In this document: positions 3,782 to 7,153 of the stretch, piece after piece | Layout of the letters: each line of letters opens with the position of its first letter | Position numbering within the stretch: the first letter of the stretch is position 1 | NCBI RefSeq assembly: GCF_002104995.1 | Contig: NW_024468249.1 | Location: 3,100,001 to 3,164,000 of the forward strand | DNA length: 64,000 nt | Source: Linderina pennispora | Lineage: Eukaryota > Kickxellomycota > Kickxellomycetes > Kickxellales > Kickxellaceae | Direction of reading: 5' to 3' | The notes under the pieces: generated by a model | Seen by the model: only the letters and a program-made list of their open reading frames with translations | Database searches by the model: none | What the model was told of the DNA's origin: nothing | Position numbers and translations under genes: made by a program

Positions 3782-3803
3782 TGTCCAGCAACTGAGGGTA
3801 TTT

Positions 3804-3857
<54 letters not shown>

Positions 3858-3881
3858 CGTTGTCCAGCAACTGAGGGTATT
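3782..3881 (-). mobile_element. poly(A)-only retroposed insert with 21-bp direct repeats
   Basis: A 53-nt uninterrupted T tract (3805-3857) sits between two perfect 21-bp direct repeats, 3782-3802 and 3861-3881, sharing the core TCCAGCAACTGAGGGTATT. Read on the minus strand, this is a short leader, a long poly(A) tail and a duplicated target site. That is what target-primed reverse transcription by a non-LTR element leaves when only the poly(A) tail of an RNA is copied. Tandem duplication followed by slippage is an alternative. No LINE protein is visible in this window, so the machinery must be elsewhere. Confidence 0.6.
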
Positions 3882-4095
3882 CGATTGTAATCTAAACTGT
3901 TAGAGTTCACTTCAATTGAGCACAGCAAGAGCGATGACAAGAGGCTGCAAGCTCCACATCAACCGATTTTCTAATAGAATCTTCTATTAAGAATAGCAAA
4001 TTCACTCCAAAGAATATGTAGACTTTCCCGCTAAGCAAGCGCGCACATCTGCAAAATAGAACCTGCCGCCGGTTAGGGCGAAAGCAGCAAAAGCT

Positions 4096-4100: not shown

Positions 4101-4172
4101 TTCCGCAACGGGGAATCGAACCCCGGCCACGACGGTGAGAGCGTCGGATCCTAGCCACTGGACCATTGCGGA
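4101..4172 (-). tRNA. tRNA-Glu (anticodon CTC)
   Basis: The 72-nt minus-strand sequence folds into a complete cloverleaf. The acceptor stem is TCCGCAA/TTGCGGA with discriminator A. The D arm carries an A box (TGGTCCAGTGGCTAGGA). The anticodon stem CGACG/CGTCG carries the loop CTCTCAC, giving anticodon CTC. The T arm is CGGGG-TTCGATT-CCCCG (B box). No intron is present. The T5 run just downstream is a Pol III terminator. The sequence closely follows the usual eukaryotic tRNA-Glu pattern. It lies about 320 bp from the Fanzor stop codon. Confidence 0.96.
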
Positions 4173-4490
4173 TTTGAAGCGCTTTTTGTGAGGCAATCAT
4201 CCCTCAAGCTGTTGAATACTGGTGGAAATTAAAAACATACACAATATCACTATTTTGCCTTTTTATCCCCATTCTCGATACTGTGAAGGCTGCGCATATG
4301 GCTACAGAGGCTCTAGGTGATTCGAAATTGGAGTCTTTTGTACGTGATCATGTCTATCCAAATGGCTACTAGAAATACTCTGCTCGCGATGCGAGCTCGG
4401 CTGCTAGTCAGCATGGGTTGACACGTCGATAAGGGCATCACGGCGAACCGGTCATTTGAACGTGTCGGATGGTTGTTGGTGCAATGCCGA
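4173..4490 (-). other. 3' flank of Fanzor gene, candidate guide-RNA region
   Basis: No protein gene is present. TnpB and Fanzor loci often encode their guide RNA at or just after the 3' end of the nuclease gene, so this flank is where it should be sought. A perfect 6-bp hairpin with a 3-nt loop (GCTCGC-GAT-GCGAGC, 4382-4396) is visible about 95 nt beyond the stop. I cannot see clear terminal inverted repeats or a target duplication. The guide-RNA assignment is inference from position only. Confidence 0.25.
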
Positions 4491-5624
4491 TCATGGACAT
4501 CTCCTGTCTTGATGGCCTGCTCTGCGTAGGCGCTTCAGCGCTGGCTCGCTGCTGCTAGCAGCAGAATCGCCTGCTGCTGCACGCCTCTTGTGCAGGTTCT
4601 TTGTTGCCAGGGTGGTGCCAGAAGCATCGGCAACAATGGCCGTAAAGCGACGGAACCGTTCAGGAATACTGCCTGAATCACAGAGTGACTGGAAAATGAG
4701 CCTGAAGTTTAGAACTGCTGCGAGATCGCGGTTCAAGAGCCGAGACGAATAGGCCCGCCTGTATTGTGCCATGGCCCGCTTACATGACTCGCTTGTACAG
4801 CGGAGAAGGCCATGGCACTTCACAGTTGGGTTCTTCGATCTCTGGTAGGGCCGCGGGTTGGGAACATGCCGGAATGTCTGCAGTGACTTATCGCAGCAGA
4901 ACGGGCACATCGACGATGTCCGGAATTCGTCGATCAGATAGACTTCAAAGCCATGGTGCTTGAACTTGTCGCGCCATCCTTTGCCACGGATCGGCGCATG
5001 GTGTCGGGCCATCGGCGCACTCCAATTGCCCATGATCAGCACTGGATCTGGACCGAACTTGCTCCGGAGTTTCGCAGCAAGCCTGTGGTCTGCACGGGCC
5101 TGGTTCATGAATGAATCAAGGTGCAGCTTGCGGTGAAGCGGGTACACCTTGGGACTGGTACTGACACCTGGATGGGCCTTCCAGCGCCTTTGGTGCTGCT
5201 TGTTTGACTTAGTGAGTTGCTGCTCTGGTAACCTTCGCGCTGTCATCGTGCTGGCATAAAACGGTGCTAGGACACACCGCACAGATGCACGGGCAGCAAC
5301 GTAGGCACGGAATTTTGCTGGGATAAGGGTCCGGCAGCAGTGCTTGGAAAGCCCTGCCTCTGCTCTGCGGACAGCATCTTCTGGGACTTGATCCTTTGTA
5401 GCCCGACGAATCCTGTCATAGTGGCGCAGCTTGAGCTCCTTATTGCGCTGCTGCCGTGTGTAGCGGTAGAGCATTTTTTCACCCTCTTTCCCATTGCTGC
5501 TATTTTCGTGCATCATGTATAGCAAATCGCCCCGACCTGGATCGATGAATACACAGCGGCCTTTCAGATTCTGCAGCTCTGGCTGTGGGATCTGGTGGAT
5601 ATAGCGACAGTCAGCTATAGTACT

Positions 5625-5805
5625 GCCTCCCACAGCATCACCTCCTGCAACATCGCCTGTAGCATCGCCTCCCACAGCATCGCCTGTAGCATCGCCTCCC
5701 ACAGAATTGCCTCCCGCAGCATCGCCTCCCGCAGCATCGCCTCCCGCAGCATCGCCTCCCGCAGCATCGCCTCCCGCAGCATCGCCTCCTGCAGCATCAG
5801 CATCC
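5625..5805 (-). repeat. 15-bp tandem repeat encoding GGDAA units in Fanzor
   Basis: About twelve degenerate units of a 15-bp motif (plus strand GCATCGCCTCCCGCA) run in frame. The best-conserved six lie at roughly 5705-5795 and encode GGDAA. Flanking units have drifted to GGDAT, GDAVG and similar. The array sits in the variable loop just before RuvC-I, so it probably lengthens a surface linker and leaves the fold intact. Confidence 0.85.
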
Positions 5806-6319
5806 ACTGCACCATCAGCCTTGGATATCTTGTCTTGCAACAAAATGCATATTGCTACACCATCTGTTGTCGCCATTCCGTGGAATTTTCTATCACCATG
5901 CGCCTTAAATGGCTTTGATGTTAGATCTGCGACCCGGCCCCACACATCCCACACAGGTTGTGTGATCCCTTGGACCGGGTCATGTGCACAGACTGGGGGT
6001 GCTGGTGCATATGCATTGTTAAGTGCTGCAACAGTGTCTGCTGCTGCTGCCGATGCAGCAGCAAGTGAATCAGCCGCTACTGCTGCAGTTGCTGCAGTAG
6101 CCTCTGTTGCATCCGATGGCATCTTCGCTGCTTCGTGTGCAGCCTTCTTGGCCAATTTTTCGCCCCTTTCTGCTGCTTTCCTTGCCTCTGTTGCTGCCCT
6201 CTTTGCTGCGTTGATCTTGGTAACCTCCTCACGTGTTTTCGAAACAAACACCTGCTTGATTATTTGCTTGTCCAAACGCACATGGCCTGGGATCCATGAT
6301 GTCCGCAGAGGCAAGCATT

Positions 6320-6325
6320 GGGGGG
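6320..6325 (-). other. frameshift site in Fanzor (C6 homopolymer)
   Basis: The upstream frame reads ...LGKSPPN here and then runs to a stop at 6260. The family-like continuation (QCLPLRTSWIPG) is in another frame and is reached if the run is seven C residues long instead of six. A homopolymer is the commonest place for both sequencing indels and slippage. Confidence 0.75.
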
Positions 6326-7153
6326 AGACTTGCCAAGCTGCTCATTCTCGATAAGCTGGCATAGACGAATGTATGCACGCAGATGCTTAAGTGGATTTAC
6401 CTTGGCATCATAGTATCGGCTGTCTTTAGCGAATCTGTACTTGGCATCATAGGCATTAAGGACTGGTGCCAGCTTGTTGTAGATTGCAAGCATCGGTGGG
6501 GTGAGCACACTGAGATCAGGGCGCCTAGAGGCAACTGCCTGGCGGAGCTTCTGTGAAGGTGTATAAATACACGCTTGACATGCGTTATTGAACTCAGCCT
6601 TGGACACATTGCCCATTGTACTGTGCAGTGTGTTTTTGCGGCTGCGAATATCAATCAATTTGGCCAGAATCCGCTGTAGGCAAGTGCCATAGTGCAACAC
6701 AATGTTGTTCTTGTATGCTGTCATCAGCTCGGTATCCACGTATGTTGCTACTTGATTCATTTCACGTACACCATGTAGCTCGATATCGCCATTATGCAAT
6801 AGATAATCATAAATATGGTATCTAACTACATCACCGAAATCTGCGCCCGACAGTTCTGACTTGTCCTTCCGGTTGACGAAATCCTTGGCAGATATGACAG
6901 TCTTCGCCTTCAGGTTACGATAAATGAATAAATAAATAAAACGAAAAAAACCCTTTTTCACAAATGTTGCTGGGTCAAAAGCATCCCCGTCAGCTAGCTG
7001 ATGGAGTAATCTCCATCGTGCAAGCATGTATGTATGCTCTTTGATGATATTGACACTATGTACAAATTGCTCTAGGCGGGGCAACATAGAATCACGGAAG
7101 CCAATACCACCAAGTGATGTCTTTATGACAGTAGTGCTGCGGGTAATATTCAT

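Follow-up and report, generated by a model that had tools for sequence, protein, structure and literature searches.

A frame-broken Fanzor1 gene in a large family of probable non-autonomous Helitrons of the fungus Linderina pennispora

The gene at positions 4491-7153 (reverse strand) of the window, as the whole stretch of 64,000 nucleotides of Linderina pennispora DNA analysed here is called, is, judged by its sequence, a real member of the Fanzor1 family of RNA-guided nucleases with a broken reading frame. Very probably it is one of many copies of a 3.4-kb non-autonomous Helitron that carries Fanzor1 as its sole gene, a reading to which mobilisation in trans, an omegaRNA with a guide taken from the flank, and homing are added by inference. 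The window copy is a decayed member and the interest lies in the family. With more than 100 match places in a small genome, open as well as broken copies, an adjoining partner Helitron and flanks that differ at almost every copy, homing becomes directly testable, and the predicted guide, target and TAM can be written for each copy.

The list of open reading frames and a direct reading of the bases showed that the gene is split once, at a run of six C on the gene strand (6320-6325, reverse strand). The N-terminal half, corresponding to the REC/WED side, is an open reading frame of 297 aa starting from ATG (6260-7153, reverse strand), which ends just past the frame break; in an open copy of the family the same region was aligned with PpFz1. 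The C-terminal half (4491-6314, reverse strand) carries the RuvC and zinc-ribbon parts and forms an open reading frame of 607 aa, the true codons of which start upstream of the listed TTG. A 15-bp tandem repeat encoding Gly/Asp/Ala units is located between the WED side and RuvC (5625-5798, reverse strand), and the indels found among copies cluster there (codon 477).

The first-pass annotation had proposed a Fanzor gene with three acidic RuvC residues and a cysteine zinc finger in a fungus, and all of this was borne out, the host being a fungus of the Kickxellales. The C-terminal half alone matched PpFz1 of Parasitella with an E value of 4.4e-59 and SpuFz1 of Spizellomyces with 1.7e-31. For an open family copy the corresponding values were 1.1e-83 for PpFz1, 5.9e-36 for SpuFz1 and 2.8e-06 for GtFz1, and homology to characterised Fanzor1 proteins is present over the catalytic core. 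Alignment to known Fanzors, a check named beforehand, identified the acidic residues as those of RuvC: the RuvC-I aspartate (5541-5543, in FIDPGRGD) aligned with D383 of SpuFz1, the RuvC-II glutamate (4926-4928, in LIDEFRTSS) with E541 and the RuvC-III aspartate (4725-4727, in LLNRDLAAVLNF) with D606, all on the reverse strand. The SpuFz1 residue numbers were taken from PMC10432273 and the offset was computed by hand. The zinc-ribbon cysteines were likewise aligned with those of PpFz1 and SpuFz1 in the alignments of the C-terminal half. The Fanzor1 motif order D - X - [TS][TS]XX-C4 zinc finger - RD, as given in PMC3627910, was found here.

The Pfam TNB model scored 14.1 bits, below its cut-off of 26.3, and the Fanzor assignment therefore rests on the solved relatives. 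Since a search of the own genome with PF07282 at E 0.001 returned no match, the family was found using the two protein halves. Structure prediction gave a pLDDT of 50.4 for the full-length open copy and of 61.6 for the RuvC piece; such poor to moderate models carry no weight in the assignment. A protein search with the open copy, among the best 7999 candidates, recovered 20 proteins (16 from Coemansia, two from Helicostylum, one from Thamnidium and one from Mucor) with 33-42% identity across 30-52% of the query. A profile search built from the homolog alignment returned one protein.

The two Fanzor halves gave at least 103 and at least 135 match rows in the genome, some of the rows being pieces of one copy. 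For further study 47 copies were assembled, the window copy included: 34 longer than 2700 bp (the 3' end being present in 29 of them), 11 deletion derivatives and two others. The frame was uninterrupted in nine of the 47, with 857, 860, 861, 863, 867, 870, 870, 876 and 889 codons, compared with the length of about 905 residues first put forward for the joined gene. The presence of intact copies elsewhere makes the window copy one of many and not a lone candidate nuclease. At two loci, L007 (C2_449136) and L021 (C23_1714), the 5' end of a further Fanzor element forms the 3' flank, an arrangement of nested or tandem insertions.

Comparison with other copies placed the edges of the window element at 4369 and 7762 (reverse strand), giving a probable non-autonomous Helitron of 3394 bp with TC...CTAG ends. 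Helitrons begin with TC after an A, carry a 3' hairpin shortly before CTRR followed by T, and insert between A and T with no target duplication. Of 31 non-composite copies, 24 start with A|TC at the 5' edge; three have a different base there and in four the end was not parsed, duplicated insertions being among these. At the 3' end the layout is a 15-nt hairpin, 9 nt, CTAG and then T. In the window copy the terminal hairpin GCTCGC-ATC-GCGAGC was read directly at 4382-4396 (reverse strand), and the 3' end of the Rep-Helicase Helitron described below is laid out in the same way, its hairpin differing by two paired substitutions. The CTAG terminus lies at 4369-4372 (reverse strand). Across 38 distinct flanks the last six bases were CTAGTA in 33, CTGGTA in three, CCAGTA in one and ATAGTA in one; CTAG or CTGG was thus present at 36 ends, T followed at all 38, and GTA was seen at 38 of 38. 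No inverted repeat of at least 14 nt joining the element ends was found. Fanzor is the only gene-like open reading frame of the element, the others being antisense or short, and the list of open reading frames contained no transposase, recombinase or Rep-Helicase gene; lacking the last of these, the element is non-autonomous. The only unoccupied paralogue found, of the flank of C112_1104883, is ambiguous: its alignment is gapless if TA is counted as target, but it differs at the site. Several copies, e.g. C112_1222852 and C161, have extra ATCTTT units at the gene-5' end, which is unusual for a Helitron end.

Three other features were recorded near the element. A tRNA-Glu gene (CTC) at 4101-4172, about 195 bp from the element 3' end, was the sole Rfam match. 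At 3782-3886 about 57 T lie between 26-nt direct repeats, whereas the homologous contig C162 reads differently where the T run would be; the segment resembles the insertion of a poly(A) tail that duplicated its target. A BAHD-type transferase is found in split frames at 461-1771, with PF02458 in the first piece, and these are either exons or a broken gene. Elsewhere in the window, a lipase gene matches Linderina pennispora proteins with 43-44% identity.

The Rep domain (PF14214) was detected in 13 rows from seven places; six of these resemble one another, and the seventh is divergent and has a long open frame. An inner stop interrupts three of the seven main Rep matches and the loci are partial; no intact Rep-Helicase copy was found among them. 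Five Fanzor copies begin directly after GCTTGCATCGCAAGC-9 nt-CTAG, which is the 3' end of the Rep-Helicase element. Similarity to the Rep-Helitron upstream of these composites extended over 423-894 bp in four of the five, the fifth being read over 45 bp only. The stretch before one composite copy encodes a Pif1 2B domain (E 1e-19), and a 509-aa piece of another Rep copy gave no Pfam hit. Two composites, C157 (read as two loci with 668 bases between them) and C212, are 99.3% identical upstream, pair as sisters in the tree and are followed by different 3' flanks, which suggests that the Rep-Helicase and Fanzor units moved together. Two further Rep loci were noted: in L066 (C171) a Rep-Helicase copy is interrupted by a Copia-type polymerase-like open frame of 444 aa, and in L067 (C68) the divergent Helitron Rep has an open frame of 1989 aa and may represent a second, intact Helitron family.

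Changes at the N-terminal and RuvC codons of the 34 long copies were sorted by the number of copies sharing them. Those seen once comprised 197 nonsynonymous and 85 synonymous changes (dN/dS 0.68), those in two to three copies 54 and 52 (dN/dS 0.30), and those in at least four copies 39 and 57 (dN/dS 0.20). Widely shared changes are strongly purified at the protein level; the Fisher test of singletons against changes in at least four copies gave P 7e-7, an optimistic value because the copies are related. This signal argues that the nuclease mattered for the spread of the element. Pairwise pN/pS did not separate the classes (open 0.34, six-base run 0.37, deletion derivatives 0.38, other broken copies 0.40); such near-equal values are expected if most breaks are young and do not support selection either. 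Methylation- or RIP-like mutation was also considered: 74% of the singletons were transitions, with an excess of C>T/G>A changes, and nothing was extreme.

A hairpin in the coding region (4740-4850, reverse strand; fold z -5.26) and the element 3' UTR (4369-4490, reverse strand) are together a candidate omegaRNA, as its putative 5' and 3' parts, respectively. Among 800 sliding 30-codon windows, third-position diversity was lowest at codons 752-781, the hairpin stretch, and of 110 windows placed along the element this stretch had the second-lowest fold z. The 3' UTR was singled out by conservation, its own fold z of -1.34 not being exceptional: in 29 copies its pi was 0.010-0.046 in five 20-nt bins from -120 to -21 and rose to 0.082 in the last bin, the value for the 5' UTR being 0.062. 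The coding hairpin showed no compensatory change, and the 3' UTR showed a single such cell. The lowest fold z of the 110 windows (-5.07) was found at 5884-5993, in the coding region upstream of RuvC. The idea that deletion derivatives keep the 3' end as an omegaRNA was weakened by two observations: their right breakpoint lies in a CTGCAG/GCA micro-repeat in 10 of the 11 junctions listed, and conservation of the hairpin is weaker in them (pi 0.018-0.075). The flank at 4343-4366 (reverse strand) would be the guide of the window copy, a role suggested by its position and by analogy with the Fanzor loci in PMC10432273.

The conservation of the coding hairpin and of the 3' UTR may instead reflect constraints of the protein and of transposition, an explanation given somewhat less than an even chance. 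The region codes for the conserved zinc ribbon, Helitrons need a terminal hairpin, and the deletion derivatives, with their less conserved hairpin, would retain the end through the micro-repeat breakpoint. This alternative sits poorly, however, with third positions that are the least variable of the 800 windows and with a hairpin 3' arm coding for residues that are not conserved in relatives. The assignment of the element to Helitrons can be questioned as well, as several copies bear (ATCTTT)n runs at their gene-5' end, which resemble some retroelement tails, and the TA that always follows CTAG would, taken alone, also suit a TA target. Another class, such as a retroelement tailed by simple repeats or an element of the IS607/Crypton kind, is nevertheless hardly likely: no duplicated target bases were seen by eye beside the inspected copies, A|TC and the hairpin-9 nt-CTAG layout are common to the Rep-Helicase Helitron, and the element holds no transposase or recombinase gene.

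Two further alternatives concern the frame break. When the window copy is aligned with an open one, its frame is broken by one indel (codon 277) and contains no stop, in agreement with the single lesion seen in the first-pass annotation, which had suggested a full-length, possibly active Fanzor in case the run is really seven C or is recoded. The lone indel, its homopolymer site and the scattered 1-nt differences between C162 and the window contig (of a kind shown by small contigs of the assembly) speak for a slip in sequencing or assembly. Against it, the same six-base run occurs in 14 of the 47 copies, on many contigs, the window copy sits on a 3.3-Mb contig, and run length at the site varies widely across the family, other copies having 7, 9 or 10 C or interrupted runs. 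The nearest copy, on C162, is the sister of the window copy in the tree and has a 3' flank in common with it (91.8% in a gapped alignment of the first 300 bp); it is intact at the window's break site but broken at codon 65. A slip concealing an open gene is thus improbable, and the suggestion was not upheld. Programmed frameshifting at the run could in principle give a full-length protein from both halves, the run being a slippery sequence and the window copy and C179 both having an open downstream half. This is very improbable, considering that the nine open copies require no shift, that the other five long copies with the six-base run have further lesions or deletions, and that copies of the same run state do not group together in the tree. 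The scatter, in a FastTree tree drawn without support values, was also the reason for dropping the run as the mark of one dead subfamily. With 14 scattered copies among the 47 having the run, it looks like a recurrent slippage site and not a one-off base-call slip.

For the favoured reading, a frame-broken copy in a family of non-autonomous Helitrons, a mechanism can be outlined. The Rep-Helicase Helitrons would move the Fanzor element in trans, and the window copy would move only in this way, yielding at most an N-terminal fragment. The element 3' end would give the omegaRNA, and the flank of each copy would be its guide, by analogy with published Fanzor loci, in which the omegaRNA is flanked by the guide on its 3' side (PMC10432273). 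The nuclease made from open copies would then cut unoccupied sister or allelic sites, and the element would spread by copying. The 38 3' flanks are distinct, a few of them pairing up as duplicates or alleles that are nearly identical. A gene-drive role on plasmids has been reported for TnpB (PMC11870625), and the role of Fanzors for their hosts or carriers is stated as unknown in PMC10432273.

A more specific version, unlikely though conceivable by analogy, is a self-targeting pair in which the Helitron inserts at A|TA, the TAM of the nuclease. The TAM of PpFz1 is ATN (PMC11423790), and if the TA that follows CTAG is target sequence, an unoccupied site would read ATA and be split by the insertion. 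Splitting of the TAM would protect the filled site, the nuclease would home into unoccupied alleles, and the guide would be rewritten with each insertion. The TA found after CTAG in all 38 flanks fits this split-TAM reading, and equally a TA that is part of the element.

Fanzors in Coemansia were not reported in the literature searched, subscription papers and outside preprints aside, and none from Zoopagomycota, Kickxellomycotina, Kickxellales or Linderina was among the six of 58 literature matches listed. The best solved relative is PpFz1 of Parasitella parasitica (PDB 9cf0-9cf3), with which the REC, WED, RuvC and zinc-ribbon parts align in order. Its long stretch at about chain positions 994-1096, from the second RuvC block to the last block, has a short counterpart here, and the Linderina protein has Ala-rich and Gly/Asp/Ala repeats instead. 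SPu-1 of Spizellomyces punctatus, the source of SpuFz1, is likewise a Fanzor-only element, for which an omegaRNA and ghost loci without protein are described in PMC10432273. The 33-bp terminal inverted repeats and TA duplications of SPu-1 (PMC3627910) were, in contrast, not seen for the Linderina element. IS200/IS605 TnpB similarly combines HUH-type single-stranded DNA transposition with an RNA-guided nuclease, a parallel drawn in PMC10432273, but the Linderina system is eukaryotic and its presumed transposase lies in separate elements. A further likeness is to CRe-1, 2 and 3 of Chlamydomonas reinhardtii, in which Fanzor1 is carried on non-autonomous Helitrons with many copies and internal deletions. 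According to PMC3627910, these are of the Helitron2 type, insert after TTTT, often with target duplications, and have Fanzor in 5-10 exons, whereas the Linderina element has A|TC...CTAG|T ends, a single-exon gene and copies placed behind Rep-Helicase Helitrons. Fanzor1 on non-autonomous Helitrons was known already from Chlamydomonas, and what is new here is a Fanzor1 family on what are probably canonical-ended Helitrons, in a fungus of the Kickxellales and in tandem with Rep-Helicase elements.
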